NCBI RefSeq assembly: GCF_002215215.1
Contig: NZ_CP018632.1
Coordinates: 1,484,501-1,548,500, forward strand
Source: Granulosicoccus antarcticus IMCC3135
GTDB taxonomy: Bacteria; Pseudomonadota; Gammaproteobacteria; Granulosicoccales; Granulosicoccaceae
Direction of reading: 5' to 3'
DNA: 64,000 nucleotides
Positions 45,498 through 51,920 of this stretch are shown here, piece by piece (within the stretch, counting starts at the first letter, position 1; each line of letters starts with the position of its first letter). Both the position numbers and the translations under genes were made by a program. The notes under the pieces are model-generated. The model ran no database searches. It saw only the letters and a list, made by a program, of their open reading frames with translations, and was not told the origin of the DNA.

Positions 45498-46760
45498 ATG
45501 CATTTGCAGGATTCATGTCACCCTATCACCTACCGAGTCGGCACACACCGTATTTGCGATCCTGAAGAGACGCTTACGCTCGTCAGGCCCTATATGCCAG
45601 CCATGGGCATTACTCGTATAGCCGATGTTACCGGGCTGGATACCATCGGCATACCGGTGGTCATGGTCTGCCGCCCCAACTCTCGTTCTGTTTCTGTCTC
45701 GCAAGGCAAAGGCAGCACACTGGCAGCTGCCAGCGCATCGGGATTGATGGAGAGCGTCGAAGGGTTTCATGCCGAACACATTACGCTGCCGCTTAGAATT
45801 GCCTCGGTTGTGGACATGCAGAACTCGGGGTGTCGGGTGAGCATCGAAGGCTTGCCAACGGTCGAAAATTCACCGTTTCATCGACATTTTCCTATCGCCT
45901 GGATCGAAGCGGTAGACCTGTTGCGGCAACAATCCTCATGGGTGCCCTATGAAATGGTGCATACCAACTACACCTGGCCACGACCCTCTGGCAGTGGTTG
46001 TTTTCCTGCCAGCAGTAATGGTCTGGCTTCCGGGAATTGTCTTGCAGAAGCAACCATTCATGCCATTTGTGAGGTTATCGAGCGTGATGCGATTACGCTC
46101 TGGCATCAACTCGGGGCTCAGGCTATCGATCGTACTTCCATCAATCCGGATACCATTGATGATCCGCTTTGCCTTGAGACTCTGGGTAAGCTTGAAGAGG
46201 CCGGGCAGGATACGTATCTATGGGATATCACATCAGATTCAGGTATTCCAAGCTACTTTGCAGTCATCATGGATCGACAATCGCACACGCGGCATATCGG
46301 TGTTGGGTCGGGCACCCATTTGTCCCGCCATGTTGCGTTGTTACGAGCCCTGCACGAGGCCGTACAGGTCAGAACCACTTATATAGTCGGCGCTCGTGAT
46401 GATCTGACTCCCCGTGAGTACACTTCGGAAGGTATTGATGAAAAACAGCGCTTTTTCAGCAATATCATACGACGCTCATCATTTTTGACCGACTATTCAG
46501 ACAGGACAGACATACATTCGGCATCGGTGGAAGAGGATCTGGATACGCTGCTGCAGTGCTTGCAGAGAATCGCGATTTCCCAAATGCTGCTCGTGGATTT
46601 AAGCAAGCCCGAATATGACATTGCGGTCGTTAGGGTGATCATCCCTGGGCTGGAATCTCCCCATGATGATGATGGCTATATACCCGGAGCACGCGCACTG
46701 GGTGTACGCAATGAGGCGGATAATGGTTTTCAGCAGCAGCGCGAGTCACTGGGCGAATGA
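45498..46760 (+). CDS. YcaO-domain peptide-modifying enzyme (TfuA-associated)
   Basis: A 420-residue YcaO protein, ATP-dependent and acting on peptide backbone amides. YcaO enzymes form azolines from Cys/Ser/Thr or, with a TfuA partner, backbone thioamides. ATP-site residues are visible: Ser81, Glu85 and Glu88 in SGLMESVEGFHAEH, Asn/Gly in SSNGLASGN at 172-180, and Glu192, Glu195 and Arg196 in AICEVIERDAI. The C-terminus contains YIPGARALG. There is no fused cyclodehydratase C/E1-like domain and none nearby. Its end overlaps the TfuA gene by four bases (ATGA), so the two are co-translated. ATG 45498 has GAGG too close; TTG 45504 with GAGG eight bases away is an alternative. Confidence 0.93.
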   Translation: MHLQDSCHPITYRVGTHRICDPEETLTLVRPYMPAMGITRIADVTGLDTIGIPVVMVCRPNSRSVSVSQGKGSTLAAASASGLMESVEGFHAEHITLPLRIASVVDMQNSGCRVSIEGLPTVENSPFHRHFPIAWIEAVDLLRQQSSWVPYEMVHTNYTWPRPSGSGCFPASSNGLASGNCLAEATIHAICEVIERDAITLWHQLGAQAIDRTSINPDTIDDPLCLETLGKLEEAGQDTYLWDITSDSGIPSYFAVIMDRQSHTRHIGVGSGTHLSRHVALLRALHEAVQVRTTYIVGARDDLTPREYTSEGIDEKQRFFSNIIRRSSFLTDYSDRTDIHSASVEEDLDTLLQCLQRIAISQMLLVDLSKPEYDIAVVRVIIPGLESPHDDDGYIPGARALGVRNEADNGFQQQRESLGE

Positions 46761-48076
46761 ATGTCGTATTCGCAGGTCCCACGATCAGTCATGAAGAAAT
46801 ACGACGTCACCATGACTGCGTCTGTCTGCCTCCCGTGAGCCACGGTGACATTCTTCGGGTGTTGCAGGACAAACCGGCGGCGATCGGCATTATCGATGGC
46901 TATTTTGAAGGAGCGCCATCCGTCTGGCACAAGGAGATTCTGTACGCCCTGGATCAGGGTGTGCGGGTGTATGGCAGCTCCAGCATGGGTGCTCTGCGTG
47001 CTGTCGAGTTATATCCATTCGGTATGAAGGGGGTCGGGCAGGTATTTCAGTGGTACCGGGACGGTGTCATTACCGATGATGATGAGGTTGCCGTTTTGCA
47101 TGGCCCTGAGCAAGTCGGGTTCGTGATGGCCTCCGAACCCATGGTCAATATTCGTGCAACGCTGGCTTTGGCCTGTCAGCAACAAGTCATAAACGATGTA
47201 CAGAAGTCGAGCTTGCTGGATATTGCCAAGAATACGTTTTACAAGAAACGCCGTTGGTCAGATCTGCTTGAAGCGGCGATTGGTTTGTTTGAAAACAAGG
47301 CGCAGGCTCGTTTGATAGCTGAGTGGTTGCAGCAAAACCGTGTTGATCTGAAAAAGCAGGACGCACGATGCCTGCTGGCAGAGATGCATCAGGATGCTGT
47401 CGAAGATCTGGATGTTCCACCAACAGATTTTCATTTTGAATGGACCGTTGTCTGGGATGTTGCATTCAAAGAAAATGAGCGAATGCTGGCATCAGCGATA
47501 ACGCTGACAAATGACGACAGGAAGGTGCTTGATCAGTTGCGTCTCTATCCAGAGCAATATGAGCGCTACCAGGACAAATCCCTGCTGAACTGGATGAGTT
47601 TTGATCATGCAGAAACTATCATTTCGGATAGTGCCTTGAAGACTGCACTGAATCAGTTCAGGGCTCACAACCGACTTGCCTCACGCAGTATGCTGATGAG
47701 CTATCTGGAGAGGGCAGATCTGGACGAGTCGAAGCTGACAGCGTTGATGCACGGGGTTTCTCGCCTGGAATCGCATCGTCGATCAGCCGGTGATCTGCAG
47801 CCTGGAATCATCGATCAACTCAAACTTGATGGTCAGTATTTCAGGTTTCTTGACCTTGCCAATCTGAAGATTGCGACACTTGCGAGCGCTGAGATTGATT
47901 CTGCGCAGTCAGGTTTGCTACCACCACAGCTGATTGCATGGTATTTTGAGAAAAAGCTGGGTGGCGCGATTCCACCGCGACTCGATATTCATCTGGCTAA
48001 AAACGGTTTTGAAGGTACTGATCATTTTCATCAATTGATTGGGAAAGAATATCTGTACTGGAAAGAGTGCAGGTGA
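46757..48076 (+). CDS. TfuA-like protein, YcaO partner
   Basis: A 439-residue protein whose first 120 residues are a canonical TfuA domain: FAGPTISHEEI, CLPPVSHGDILRVLQ, IGIIDGYFEGAPSVWHKEIL, GVRVYGSSSMGALRAVEL, GMKGVGQVFQWYRDG and DDDEVAVLHGP. TfuA proteins work with YcaO enzymes; in thioviridamide-type systems and in methyl-coenzyme M reductase maturation the pair makes thioamides, with TfuA thought to supply or deliver sulfur. The remaining 300 residues are mostly helical with no motif I recognise; they may bind the precursor. The start overlaps the YcaO stop by four bases. Confidence 0.92.
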   Translation: MNVVFAGPTISHEEIRRHHDCVCLPPVSHGDILRVLQDKPAAIGIIDGYFEGAPSVWHKEILYALDQGVRVYGSSSMGALRAVELYPFGMKGVGQVFQWYRDGVITDDDEVAVLHGPEQVGFVMASEPMVNIRATLALACQQQVINDVQKSSLLDIAKNTFYKKRRWSDLLEAAIGLFENKAQARLIAEWLQQNRVDLKKQDARCLLAEMHQDAVEDLDVPPTDFHFEWTVVWDVAFKENERMLASAITLTNDDRKVLDQLRLYPEQYERYQDKSLLNWMSFDHAETIISDSALKTALNQFRAHNRLASRSMLMSYLERADLDESKLTALMHGVSRLESHRRSAGDLQPGIIDQLKLDGQYFRFLDLANLKIATLASAEIDSAQSGLLPPQLIAWYFEKKLGGAIPPRLDIHLAKNGFEGTDHFHQLIGKEYLYWKECR

Positions 48077-48132
48077 TGGTGTCTTGCAAAATCAGGTAAT
48101 CAGGCAGGAGCGCTCTGAGGGATATTGATCAC

Positions 48133-49548
48133 GTGGGCACGTTGTTCAGACTATTTCCACAAACGCAGACAGGTGAGAACAGCCTGCCTGCGGAGATAAT
48201 CGAAATCTCGTCACCAGCGGGCAGCATTGGTCCTGGGCCGAGTGACGATCGAATGTATGTCATCTTTCCGGTCGACAAGGCTCAGGAATATGGCTTGCAT
48301 GAAGATGAAAATGGCTACCCCTATGTTTATCTACCGCCATGGGATGGGCCGGTTTACGCGCCAGCCATGCCCGATGACAATGGTCATTTTCTGCATTACG
48401 ATAATCCGGATGACCCTGCTTTCCATGCCGCTCATACCTATGCATCAATACGGTTTACCCTGGATATCTGGGAGAGATATTTCGGTCAACCTATAGAGTG
48501 GTATTTTCACAAGTTCTATCAGCAAGCAGAAGTTGTAATACTTCCGAAGTTTGAGAACGCGCAAATCGGACGGGGCTTTATCGAAATCGGTACCGATGTA
48601 AACAAGCAGGATGGCTCTCTCTCTCCGTTCACTTTGAATTTTGATGTCATTGCCCATGAAGTGGGGCATGGTGTTTTGCTGACCCTGGTGGGAGAGCCTG
48701 AGCAGGGTCGTGAAACGGCTGAGTTTCTAGGCTTTCAGGAGTCCAGCGGCGATGTAGTCTCAATGATTTCAGCACTTCATTTTGATTCCGTTGTTGACCA
48801 GGTGCTTGAATCTACTTCAGGTAATCTGTATCGCGCTAATCATCTGAGTCGATTCGCTGAAACCTCGTCGATCGATCAGATTCGGATGGCCAATAATAAT
48901 TCCAGACTGTCAGATTTTACTGCTGGATGGAAGGACTCTCATTTACTGGCACAACCACTGACGGGTGCCATTTACGATATTCTGGTCGATGTGTTTCACG
49001 AAGAGCTGGTCCGTGTGGGGGCCATCTCAAGCACACTCGAAGAGCTATCCGACAGCCTGGAAGGATCGCCCGAGTACGAGCAGTATTTGCAGGCTGATTT
49101 TGAAGCAGCCTACGCAGCGGCACCTGAACTGTTTCGCGAGTCGTTGCTATATGCCCGAGACGCGGTGGCGACTCTGCTGATCGATACATGGGCCCGCTTA
49201 TCACCCAATGATCTGCATTACACGGATTTTCATCATGCGATGCTGAAAGCCGAGAAGGCTTTGTTTGATGGGCAATATCGCAATATCATCAATGTGAATT
49301 TTATCTGGCGCGACATCGGTTCAGCCACGGTTGGGCCGAGACTGCCGAAGGACAAGGATGAAAAACACAGCGCCGCTGGGCACAGTCACAAGAGCGAGTA
49401 CGATCACGCCGAGCACGATCACGCCAAGCAAGATCATGAGGCTTCGGAGGCTGAGCAAACGAGTGGTCTGGTAGCGAATGCTGCTGGACGCAGAGGACGA
49501 GTCAGACCGTCTTTTGCCGAACGTTACTGGCAGGCCAGAGCTGGCTGA
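48133..49548 (+). CDS. Thermolysin-like (gluzincin) metallopeptidase, likely cluster protease
   Basis: A 471-residue protein with a gluzincin active site: HEVGH at residues 175-179 (two zinc ligands and the catalytic Glu) and a third-ligand helix FQESSGDVVS with Glu203 and Asp207, as in family M4. No signal peptide is seen, so it should act in the cytoplasm, unlike typical secreted M4 enzymes. Near the C-terminus a His/Asp/Glu-rich stretch (KSEYDHAEHDHAKQDHEASE) could bind metal, and the tail is Arg-rich. It starts with GTG 48133, with GAGGGA upstream. It lies between TfuA and the repeat protein, so leader removal or cleavage of the repeats is the natural hypothesis. Confidence 0.82.
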   Translation: MGTLFRLFPQTQTGENSLPAEIIEISSPAGSIGPGPSDDRMYVIFPVDKAQEYGLHEDENGYPYVYLPPWDGPVYAPAMPDDNGHFLHYDNPDDPAFHAAHTYASIRFTLDIWERYFGQPIEWYFHKFYQQAEVVILPKFENAQIGRGFIEIGTDVNKQDGSLSPFTLNFDVIAHEVGHGVLLTLVGEPEQGRETAEFLGFQESSGDVVSMISALHFDSVVDQVLESTSGNLYRANHLSRFAETSSIDQIRMANNNSRLSDFTAGWKDSHLLAQPLTGAIYDILVDVFHEELVRVGAISSTLEELSDSLEGSPEYEQYLQADFEAAYAAAPELFRESLLYARDAVATLLIDTWARLSPNDLHYTDFHHAMLKAEKALFDGQYRNIINVNFIWRDIGSATVGPRLPKDKDEKHSAAGHSHKSEYDHAEHDHAKQDHEASEAEQTSGLVANAAGRRGRVRPSFAERYWQARAG

Positions 49549-49620
49549 ACATGCACAAGACAGACGCTCTGATCGATAAGCAGATTTTTAAAAAATCCAA
49601 TACCCGGAGACAGTAAAACA

Positions 49621-50088
49621 ATGGCTGAAACACTACTGAGTATATCTGAGGTCCTGCTCTACGGAGAAACAGTGACTGATATGAAGTACAAGGATAAGGA
49701 TGGAGACCCGGCACGGTATTTCGTACGTGTCTATGGGTTTTCTCATGAAGGCGGCTATTACGGAATGGTTGCCCCCGTCATCATGTTGCTGGAAGGCAAG
49801 GGGGCCTCCCTGGCGGCATCCACCCCTGAGGATGTCAGAAATTCCTACTCAAGCGATATCAGACAGTGGCAGTGTGACAAATCCGATCATTCGGCCAGGC
49901 TGGATGAGCTGACTGGCAGTATCGAGGATATTCTGCTCGATATCGAGATAGGTGATGATGGGCAGGGTGGACGCGTCAGTGGTGGCCGGGTTAGCGGCGG
50001 TCGCGTCAGTGGAGGCAGGGTGAGTGGCGGTCGCGTCAGTGGTGGTAGAGTGAGCGGCGGCCGTGTCAGTGGTGGCAAGAGTGACTGA
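49621..50088 (+). CDS. Putative RiPP precursor with seven GGRVS repeats
   Basis: A 155-residue protein of two parts. Residues 1-115 form a soluble, possibly folded leader with an acidic end (SIEDILLDIEIGDDGQ) and one Cys. Residues 116-150 are seven exact tandem copies of Gly-Gly-Arg-Val-Ser, then GGKSD. It has no signal peptide. GGAG lies before ATG 49621. It is the last gene of the YcaO-TfuA-peptidase set, as expected of their substrate. Thiovarsolin precursors, also modified by YcaO-TfuA, likewise have short tandem core repeats. The leader is much longer than usual, so a repeat-tailed structural protein remains an alternative. Confidence 0.72.
   Translation: MAETLLSISEVLLYGETVTDMKYKDKDGDPARYFVRVYGFSHEGGYYGMVAPVIMLLEGKGASLAASTPEDVRNSYSSDIRQWQCDKSDHSARLDELTGSIEDILLDIEIGDDGQGGRVSGGRVSGGRVSGGRVSGGRVSGGRVSGGRVSGGKSD
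49966..50070 (+). repeat. Seven 15-bp tandem units encoding GGRVS
   Basis: Seven in-frame 15-base units, each coding Gly-Gly-Arg-Val-Ser, with many synonymous differences: Arg is CGC, CGG, AGG, AGA or CGT, Val is GTC, GTT or GTG, Ser is AGT or AGC. The peptide is identical in every unit while the DNA has drifted. Confidence 0.97.
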
Positions 50089-50126: not shown

Positions 50127-51920
50127 CTACGCCAGTCCCGCCAATCTCAGTCCATGCACGAAGTGCTCAGTGTCCTTGGGGTTTACATCTGGCTGAACGT
50201 TTTCCCAATGAGTCAGACTGAAGTTCGGATAGGCTTCCATGACCTTGGTGGCATGGAATTTTGCTTCCTCTTTTTTACCCAGGTAGGCATAACAGGCCGC
50301 CAGTAGTCTTCTGCTTTCAGTCGGACTGTTCATTCTTTTCAGCGTCTTGACGGCATCATCATATTGCTTGAGATTGAAATAGGCACCGCCCAGATACCAC
50401 AGATATTGGTCGGGGTAGAACGGATTGAGCAGCAGCGAGCGTTTAAGCAGAATAATGGCTTCTTCTGATCGGCCACAATGCGCTAGAGCATCCGCCATAT
50501 TCGACATGATGTCGGTGTCATTGGGATTGAGTTGCAAGGCTGTTTCGAATGCAGCCAGACTGGCGTCGTGGTCCTTGCGATACAGATTGACGAACCCCAG
50601 CTCTCCATAGCCTCTGGCATCGCTGGGGTCGACCACAACCGACTCCTGAGCCAGCTCATGGGCTTTTTCCAGTGCAAATTCCGGATGTTCTGTCCAGGAG
50701 TAACGCCAGTCAAGGTTATAGGTACGCGATAGTGCCGCCATGGCCCGACTATAATCAGATTCGTTTTCAAGAGCGGCTTCGTACATTTGCCTGGCCTGAA
50801 AGTTCTGTTCTCGGTTGTACTTGAATATCTTCTGCTGTCCCTGCAGTACCAGAGTGTAGGATTCGATCAGTGCAGGAACCTGAATTCTGCCCATTGATTT
50901 GTCTGCAGACTGCGCCTGGACAGCCACGGCAGAAGAGATGACATCAGTAATTTCATCCTGTAAGTCAAAGATGTCGTTCACTTCGCGGTTATAGCGTTCA
51001 CGCCAGACCGAGACACCTGCTCGGCAATCAAAGAGCTCGACTGTGAGCCTGAGGCGATTGGCAGATTTTCTGATTGAACCGGTGACGACATACTGAATGC
51101 CCAGTTCTTTGCCAACTTGCTTCAATGGCATTTCTCTATTCTTGTAGACAAACGTCGAGCTACGCGAGATGACCGCCAGAGCATGAAAACGGGACAGATT
51201 GGTAATGAGATCCTCAGTTACGCCGTCGGCAAAGAATCCGTCGTGATCATTGCTGTCAAGGTTGGTGAACGGCAACACGGCAATCGAAGGTTTGCCGGCA
51301 ACAGGGCTCTCCTGTGGCTCTGTGCTGTGCTGTGTGTCTCGCGCGCGCGGGCTGGCTGAAAGCAGTACCGTCTGGGTGTCATTGGATATCTGGTAGATAT
51401 CGACCGGATCGGGAATGTTCTTCAGGCTGATACGACCAATATACTCAAAGCCCAGATTGAGTTTGTGTTTGACCTGTTCATAGACGGCCCCGGAAATACA
51501 GACACTGCCGACACGGGCATTGGATTCGATTCGAGACGCTATGTTGACGCTGTCACCCACATACTGATTCGTAACGCGCATGACATCACCCATGTGTATG
51601 CCGATGCGCATCTGAATTTTCTTGTCATCAGGCAGAATGTCACTTTCGAGTGCTATGAGTTTCTGCACCTTCACGGCAAGGTTGACGGCATCTTCGACAC
51701 TATCAAACAGAAAAAACAGACCATCCCCTCGAGTCTGCGCTAATTCTCCATTGAAGCTCACTCCAAGGGCTTCACATCTCTCGAACAAGCTGGCAATTCG
51801 GGTCGAAGTATCGTTCTCATCCACCGCCATCAGACGCGAATATCCGACTACATCGCCGAACAGGATGGCTCGCAGGCGGCGCGGGTGTTTCTGATGGTTA
51901 TCGGTGGAGAGTTCTTTCAT
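50127..51920 (-). CDS. Class III adenylate/guanylate cyclase with TPR repeats
   Basis: A 597-residue soluble protein. The N-terminal class III cyclase domain has AILFGDVVGYSRLM (metal Asp), QTRGDGLFFLFDS (second metal Asp) and IGIHMGDVM with VGDSVNIASRIES. A central region (SIAVLPFTNLDSNDHDGFFADG and YVVTGSIRK) is the TolB-like/adenylate-cyclase-associated module common in these proteins. The C-terminal 250 residues are TPR repeats, for example LNPNDTDIMSNMADALAHCG. It should make cAMP or cGMP in response to protein contacts. It ends 38 bases from the repeat-protein gene in the convergent orientation; membership in the RiPP cluster is uncertain. Confidence 0.9.
   Translation of the reverse strand: MKELSTDNHQKHPRRLRAILFGDVVGYSRLMAVDENDTSTRIASLFERCEALGVSFNGELAQTRGDGLFFLFDSVEDAVNLAVKVQKLIALESDILPDDKKIQMRIGIHMGDVMRVTNQYVGDSVNIASRIESNARVGSVCISGAVYEQVKHKLNLGFEYIGRISLKNIPDPVDIYQISNDTQTVLLSASPRARDTQHSTEPQESPVAGKPSIAVLPFTNLDSNDHDGFFADGVTEDLITNLSRFHALAVISRSSTFVYKNREMPLKQVGKELGIQYVVTGSIRKSANRLRLTVELFDCRAGVSVWRERYNREVNDIFDLQDEITDVISSAVAVQAQSADKSMGRIQVPALIESYTLVLQGQQKIFKYNREQNFQARQMYEAALENESDYSRAMAALSRTYNLDWRYSWTEHPEFALEKAHELAQESVVVDPSDARGYGELGFVNLYRKDHDASLAAFETALQLNPNDTDIMSNMADALAHCGRSEEAIILLKRSLLLNPFYPDQYLWYLGGAYFNLKQYDDAVKTLKRMNSPTESRRLLAACYAYLGKKEEAKFHATKVMEAYPNFSLTHWENVQPDVNPKDTEHFVHGLRLAGLA

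Follow-up and report, generated by a model that had tools for sequence, protein, structure and literature searches.

Gene pairs encoding a YcaO enzyme and a TfuA protein are common in Proteobacteria, especially in rhizobia, and few of their substrates are known, as is generally held and as reflected in a global mining survey whose tally for Rhizobium alone exceeds 500 YcaO-TfuA clusters (PMC8120280). Among the described systems closest to the locus reported here are two with a YcaO-TfuA pair. The thiovarsolins of Streptomyces varsoviensis (varA/varY/varT) are N-acetylated tripeptides that originate from tandem units through a YcaO-TfuA pair and carry a thioamide between Pro and Arg (PMC6511847). 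In methanogens, YcaO and TfuA thioamidate a glycine of McrA (PMC5589413). Here we describe a cluster of the YcaO-TfuA kind, with an apparently previously undescribed combination of genes, in a 64,000-nucleotide stretch of Granulosicoccus antarcticus IMCC3135 (contig NZ_CP018632.1, positions 1,484,501 to 1,548,500 of the forward strand; referred to as the window). We consider it probable, though far from certain, that the locus directs a modification of the kind found in ribosomally synthesized and posttranslationally modified peptides (RiPPs), in which a leader would guide YcaO-TfuA, a peptidase would cut the product, a GNAT enzyme would add a further step, and a nucleotide cyclase would link the system to signaling.

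The YcaO, TfuA, peptidase, and precursor genes form a row of four open reading frames (ORFs), all on the plus strand, at positions 45498 to 50088 of the window. The features of the locus are as follows.

45498-46760, plus strand: YcaO-domain enzyme, 420 residues (Pfam YcaO, 257 bits, 3e-76; cutoff, 25.7)
46757-48076, plus strand: TfuA protein, 439 residues (Pfam TfuA, 158 bits, 1e-46; cutoff, 30)
48133-49548, plus strand: gluzincin metallopeptidase, cytosolic-looking, GTG start, 471 residues (HEVGH at residues 175 to 179, E203, H270)
49621-50088, plus strand: putative precursor protein, 155 residues, ending in seven GGRVS units and GGKSD
49621-49965, plus strand: leader-like N-terminal domain of the precursor, 115 residues, kept in homologues whose C terminus varies
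49966-50070, plus strand: putative precursor core, seven exact contiguous GGRVS units with only synonymous changes between them
50071-50088, plus strand: terminal GGKSD of the precursor and stop codon; an acidic last residue is common among homologous precursors
50127-51920, minus strand: protein with a class III nucleotide cyclase domain, a TolB_N-like region, and TPR (Pfam Guanylate_cyc, TPR), 597 residues
51994-52656, minus strand: GNAT acetyltransferase (Acetyltransf_3; Pfam, 4.5e-15), 220 residues

A sequence-only reading of the window had described four same-strand genes forming an apparent new RiPP cluster. Its account of the layout was accurate: the ORF positions agree, the YcaO stop and the TfuA start overlap by 4 bp (46757 to 46760), and seven GGRVS repeats, with GGKSD after them, end the precursor. 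Its interpretation is partly supported: it agrees with the conserved four-gene unit and with the leader-like domain and variable repeated core described below, but it was incomplete because the co-inherited cyclase-TPR and GNAT genes were overlooked. The cyclase-TPR and precursor genes converge, with some 40 bp between them.

Compared with the thiovarsolin cluster, the window likewise has adjacent YcaO and TfuA genes and a precursor with tandem short units, but its leader and core differ, and the APR/GPR core unit of var is absent from the unit types of the window's family (PMC6511847). Release and acetylation of thiovarsolins are ascribed to endogenous enzymes, whereas the window's cluster has a peptidase, a GNAT protein, and a cyclase (PMC6511847). 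None of the var tailoring genes (heme oxygenase, ATP-grasp, amidinotransferase, and major facilitator superfamily) was present among eight Pfam-scanned window genes; recurrent neighbors were judged by eye only. The methanogen system supplies the best-scoring YcaO and TfuA models and, in MJ1094, the closest solved YcaO, but the window's proteins fall under both equivalog cutoffs, its TfuA is longer than the model, and its proposed substrate is a repeat protein of the same operon (PMC5589413). NHLP-type RiPPs also include YcaO substrates with an unusually long leader, which is structured in NHLP; this likeness is one of description, and the NHLP-type systems form azolines, unlike what is proposed here (PMC12455567). 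Cyclases and peptidases near RiPP genes have precedent, since a graspetide survey mentions that some ATP-grasp RiPP loci contain adenylate cyclases or metallopeptidases, and it associates YcaO-TfuA with ATP-grasp branch 6; those loci are defined by an ATP-grasp ligase, whereas none was found among the scanned genes of the window's cluster (PMC8939145).

Because the global mining survey counts more than 500 YcaO-TfuA clusters in Rhizobium, some loci of the present family are probably within it; in its main text, the words repeat, cyclase, protease, metallo-, guanylate, and tandem were not found, "peptidase" occurs once, and a figure legend mentions a prolyl endopeptidase (S9) (PMC8120280). Judged by titles and the beginnings of abstracts, none of the papers found in literature searches names this gene combination, and none of those found to contain the letters GGRVS was relevant. 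The window has what marks a YcaO-TfuA RiPP cluster, namely, adjacent ycaO and tfuA genes and an in-operon precursor with a conserved leader and a variable core. The family offers a definite candidate substrate for YcaO-TfuA, one whose sequence follows a readable rule (a conserved domain plus a short word specific to each lineage). It also offers a protease that may do the processing and a genetic tie to nucleotide cyclases. Since its hosts include the culturable and tractable Rhizobium etli CFN 42, the targets of bacterial TfuA-YcaO pairs can now be tested directly.

The gene set, with a lineage-specific repeated unit and usually a cyclase alongside, recurs in marine and soil bacteria, and the order YcaO-TfuA-peptidase-precursor is found both in the window's class (Gammaproteobacteria) and in Alphaproteobacteria. 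A search with the precursor as the query in 143 relatives (genomes and loci are numbered with G and L, respectively) yielded homologues in G001, G045, and G006, one from residue 31 on at a contig edge in G029, and a 31-residue contig-edge fragment in G007. Further scanning of genome contigs added L012, identical in DNA to the G045 locus, and L013. Five repeat-only matches from that scan (L014 to L018), with YcaO, TfuA, and peptidase all unmatched in the surrounding stretches, were judged to be chance, as were four matches confined to the repeat region in four genomes (L008 to L011; E values of 1e-4 to 1e-3). With a profile of the leader, two genomes (G140 and G310) were added from 369 of the class and five (G483, G418, G519, G566, and G647) from 398 of the phylum. 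A peptidase profile matched 10 of the 398 phylum genomes at an E value of ≤1e-10, seven of them above 500 bits; six of these seven were the six precursor-positive genomes of the leader-profile search in the phylum, and the seventh (G446) also has a precursor, while the other three matches were weak, partial, and at most 73 bits.

In the taxonomic order of G566, the same profile matched 17 of 297 genomes at 18 loci, 4 of which were previously known. At the 14 loci found by the peptidase profile alone, YcaO-TfuA lay immediately upstream in every case and a precursor immediately downstream in 12, the other two (L118 and L119) stopping at contig ends. Co-occurrence of the four families elsewhere, which the sequence-only reading had named as a check, was thus found. 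The full gene order is also present in, among others, Mesorhizobium WSM1497, R. etli IE4803, and Rhizobium leguminosarum Vaf10 plasmids; Sinorhizobium meliloti Ak57 has an annotated YcaO followed by a broken-looking TfuA frame. As controls for 15 genomes with a precursor, we chose 13 genomes of the window's genus that lack one, from among the relatives searched above with a completeness of at least 90%. TfuA was found in 14/15 versus 0/13, and YcaO (E value of ≤1e-20) in 14/15 versus 2/13, both control matches being weak and in open frames of about 770 residues. The peptidase was found in 13 of the 15 (it is absent from G006, and the genome-wide search excludes G310).

The precursor of the window had no Pfam match, and a profile search of the PDB returned nothing better than an E value of 0.24. 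Its seven GGRVS units differ by at least 11 synonymous codon changes and no nonsynonymous ones (P of ~1e-6 in a simple random-substitution binomial). Among the 18 arrays tested (17 of the 18 tandem arrays in 26 precursors plus R. etli L121), there were 0 to 3 nonsynonymous changes each, with P values from 1e-6 to 1e-2, which are optimistic because units were chosen by pattern, degenerate end units being dropped (GGKSD in the window, AGRVS in L019, and GGSVS in L013), and because copy genealogy was ignored. Since contiguous identical units carry this much silent change, the repeats are, to judge from their codons, maintained at the protein level. The 18 tandem arrays fall into 10 unit types: GGRVS (6 arrays), SGARV (2), SGAKV, SGSKV, SGSRV (2), RGASV (2), SGANL-x, SRADLT, YSGGKA, and TGRSMM. 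Their period is 5 or 6 and their copy number 3 to 10; the L027 precursor has a degenerate array. Asp or Glu is the last residue in 21/26 precursors, and complete precursors have 144 to 274 residues. Over the 13 precursors compared, the N-terminal domain is alignable, with few invariant columns. A conserved N-terminal domain followed by a changing C-terminal unit suggests the RiPP pattern of leader and variable core.

The best NCBIfam model for the window's YcaO was that of the McrA-glycine thioamidation YcaO (TIGR03266; 234.8 bits against an equivalog cutoff of 365), and its closest solved relative was MJ1094 (6pe3/6peu; E value of 5e-42). TfuA scored 223.5 bits against NF033432 (ThioGly_TfuA_rel) over residues 3 to 211, just under the cutoff of 235.2, and some 230 residues lie outside the region matched by TfuA models. 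Neither protein, then, reaches the equivalog cutoff for McrA-glycine thioamidation. Residues S81, E85, E88, E192, E195, R196, Q290, and R292 are invariant across 19 cluster YcaOs (that of the window and 18 others); residues of this kind bind ATP. We propose that YcaO is an ATP-dependent, backbone-activating, thioamide-forming enzyme with TfuA as its partner, thioamidation being the likeliest of the chemistries predicted for this pair.

Members of the gluzincin clan carry an HExxH motif, a zinc-binding Glu downstream, and a catalytic His further downstream. H175, E176, H179, E203, and H270 are invariant in 10 homologues of the window's peptidase, which by these residues is a gluzincin at the clan level. 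The sequence-only reading had called it a gluzincin of the thermolysin (M4) type lacking a signal peptide. The residues bear out the clan, and no signal peptide was visible by eye (no predictor was run); the family assignment did not stand, as there was no Pfam match to M4 and the matches obtained were below their gathering cutoffs (M36, 19.4 bits against 23.3; Reprolysin_4, 14.7 against 22). In a profile search of the PDB, it weakly matched angiotensin-converting enzyme in the region of the zinc site. The C-terminal tail of the peptidase differs among homologues; in the window it contains an imperfect 15-bp tandem repeat (49395 to 49436) that encodes a His/Asp-rich stretch, DHAEHDHAKQDH, and may bind metal.

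Among close relatives, the presence of two further genes, encoding the cyclase-TPR and GNAT proteins, follows that of the cluster. The window's cyclase-TPR protein matches Guanylate_cyc (46.7 bits) and TPR above the Pfam cutoffs and TolB_N below it (17.9 bits; cutoff, 22.4). An orthologue scoring >1,000 bits was found in 8/15 precursor genomes versus 0/13 precursor-free ones, other matches to the profile reaching at most ~500 bits (392 in controls). GNAT (E value of ≤1e-20) was found in the same eight genomes and in none of the 13 controls; it is also present in L108, L109, and L116, outside the 15-genome set. Because five family members were built into each profile, the scores of those members are flattered; G001, G007, and G045 were excluded from profile building. 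G483, which belongs to another class, has both genes arranged in the same way (locus L034). With the window's cyclase-TPR protein alone as the query, the L034 protein was 46% identical, versus 29 to 32% for its G483 paralogues (five of the seven were compared), and a tree grouped the L034 protein with the cluster proteins at full support, subject to a long-branch warning.

The tie to cyclases extends to loci with other cyclase architectures. We examined 42 loci, 25 of which have a precursor or peptidase and at least 2.9 kb of flank on both sides; a class III cyclase-domain gene lay within 1 kb in 23 of the 25. Several of the loci are closely related, and their own cyclases served to build the cyclase profile. 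The 17 loci set aside (short flanks, or no precursor or peptidase) had a cyclase in 6 cases and none within the stretch examined in 11. The architectures differ: some are cyclase-TPR proteins, others are cyclase-ATPase-TPR proteins encoded upstream of YcaO, and L019 has a dCache-type protein plus a further type. Across 15 genomes, PF00211 counts 2 to 28 cyclase genes per genome, or ~0.4 to 5.9 per Mb, an underestimate because the model misses some such proteins (e.g., that of L037). Even a tripled background density would, we estimate, place a cyclase near just two or three of the 25 loci. On an Azospirillum oryzae plasmid (L128:767-7526), YcaO-TfuA is accompanied by a Crp/Fnr gene as well as a cyclase-ATPase protein, with no peptidase or precursor recognized, so the cyclase link may reach past this precursor family.

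From the gene content and order, the co-inheritance, the conserved catalytic residues, and the protein-level conservation of repeats observed here, we infer the following enzymatic steps. In a ribosomally made precursor, a conserved domain at the N terminus would serve for recognition, and the C terminus would carry an array of lineage-specific short units; YcaO would modify backbone amides in every unit, with TfuA delivering sulfide. The favored product would be a thioamide on the small residue (Gly, Ala, or Ser) that precedes the variable polar residue, the thioamide being placed before the Arg/Lys position of the unit. The cytosolic gluzincin would afterwards cut the precursor, and in the GGRVS/SGARV branch, GNAT might acetylate the freed peptides or protect against them. 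Both the thioamide site and GNAT as an acetylator are guesses by analogy with thiovarsolins. Production or action of the peptides would be coupled to cyclic-nucleotide signaling through the adjacent class III cyclase protein, either as upstream control or as downstream sensing, the data being compatible with either. A more speculative version, which we regard as doubtful, would make the modified repeat peptide a signal within the cell: produced and trimmed in the cytoplasm, this RiPP-derived ligand would be bound or sensed by the co-inherited cyclase-TPR or cyclase-ATPase-TPR protein, each lineage having its own word and its own cyclase. If true, this would amount to a peptide-to-cyclic-nucleotide relay with a posttranslationally modified peptide as its input.

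Several observations weigh against a processed RiPP. No single exporter family lies beside most loci (a generic ABC-ATPase group occurs in five genomes, and one ABC transporter group in three). Tandem repeats are lacking in 7 of the 26 precursors, which have instead a terminal tail resembling LPGKRSPxxYxxxMxxxHRxGRLxx. GNAT was not found in 7/15 precursor genomes, the two remaining loci with both flanks (L107 and L111) are cyclase-free in the stretch examined, and AlphaFold models of the precursor and the peptidase (mean predicted local distance difference test scores of 36 and 33) were of too low confidence for use. YcaO, TfuA, and precursor occur together with the peptidase absent in G006 and with no peptidase between TfuA and precursor in L027 and Paracoccus L130; in L023, too, the peptidase is not in that place. 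Release by the cluster's peptidase therefore cannot be universal.

Precursors are also found apart from YcaO-TfuA, and homologues found widely in that state were what the sequence-only reading had said would refute its proposal; this was partly borne out, in one metagenome-assembled genome and at two inspected Rhizobium plasmid loci. In the former (L013; completeness not given), peptidase, precursor, cyclase-TPR, and GNAT are all present, and YcaO and TfuA were not found genome-wide. In the latter (R. etli CFN 42 p42c and Rhizobium sp. N324), the cyclase-TPR gene comes first, followed by the peptidase and then the precursor gene, with SRSGG units in both and no YcaO-TfuA annotated within 9 kb. 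Of the 49 plasmid records that have the p42c-type peptidase-precursor pair, 48 match 80% or more of the length of the pair; flanks were inspected in two. Since R. etli CFN 42 has a YcaO-TfuA pair on another plasmid (NC_007765.1), action in trans on its precursor is possible. Conversely, in Paracoccus L127 and Azospirillum L128, YcaO-TfuA is present but no precursor or peptidase was recognized. In G007, a peptidase gene (G007:C235:3204-3794; L057) lies on a contig other than that of YcaO-TfuA-precursor, with unrelated genes downstream; the gene is therefore able to move away from the cluster.

In one alternative, the precursor stays whole, YcaO-TfuA thioamidating its repeats as in McrA and the peptidase-like protein only turning the protein over. 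The length of the complete precursors and their conserved N-terminal domain, the dispensable peptidase (G006), the missing conserved exporter, and the best scores to McrA-modifying models all speak for it. We nevertheless consider it unlikely, given that unit type, length, and number vary while the N-terminal domain is kept, as in RiPP cores, and that the peptidase retains its catalytic residues.

The chemistry could also be other than thioamidation, with YcaO forming azolines or another product at the Ser or Thr found in all 10 unit types. This seems very improbable: the YcaO scored 134 bits against the SagD-type model (TOMM_cyclo_SagD), weaker than the McrA-type model and far under the cutoff of 219 that would mark an azoline-forming enzyme of thiazole/oxazole-modified microcins or linear azol(in)e-containing peptides; TfuA adjoins YcaO in the loci examined; and single units lack Ser (GGRVA in L013 and GARVA in L107). 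No E1-like/ocin-ThiF partner with a RiPP recognition element was present among the Pfam-scanned window genes or recognized by eye among the recurrent neighbor families, for which no ThiF/recognition element profile was run. There is only a slim chance that the repeats form an unmodified structural beta-solenoid (pentapeptide- or hexapeptide-repeat-like), as sub-threshold matches to Pentapeptide (PF00805) in L111 and L034 (17.0 and 17.2 bits; cutoff, 20.2) and to Hexapep in L113 (14.1 bits; cutoff, 27) might hint, for none of the eight precursors scanned exceeded the PF00805 cutoff and that of the window did not match, one family has periods of 5 or 6, 3 to 10 copies, or no repeat, and the linkage to YcaO-TfuA would be left unexplained.

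None of the four cluster proteins was matched by PADLOC; the cyclase domain weakly matched PycC models (≤30.8 bits). In two relatives (L090:2734-5999 and L091:2568-6000), a GNAT and cyclase-TPR pair on a contig separate from the YcaO cluster adjoins a putative cyclic-nucleotide-binding-domain protein and a large ABC transporter. In three relatives (L019:1-10636, L023:3126-9743, and L078:1-6058), YcaO is preceded by a block with a second GNAT-like gene, DUF3095, and, in some, apparent glycosyltransferases and an ABC transporter; the block looks like a separate locus adjoining the cluster. Upstream genes common to G001, G006, and G007 (DUF3095, the second GNAT-like gene, and in part the ABC transporter) were rejected as cluster parts, since neither the window nor any other locus compared gave a match to them.

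Two rhizobial-type loci (L038:7930-8607 and L055:10769-11266) have a second small ORF, of no known family, after the precursor, and other small ORFs take this place in L121 (10977-11315) and L126 (10677-11117). At L129:2524-7076 and in 115 Rhizobium/Sinorhizobium plasmid records, a very common rhizobial YcaO-TfuA pair has a BTAD/TPR regulator and tiny ORFs as neighbors. Because one of these records is from Rhizobium anhuiense (NZ_CP098801.1), the species of the trifolitoxin producer T24 (PMC9670871), this pair may hold the original tfuA.

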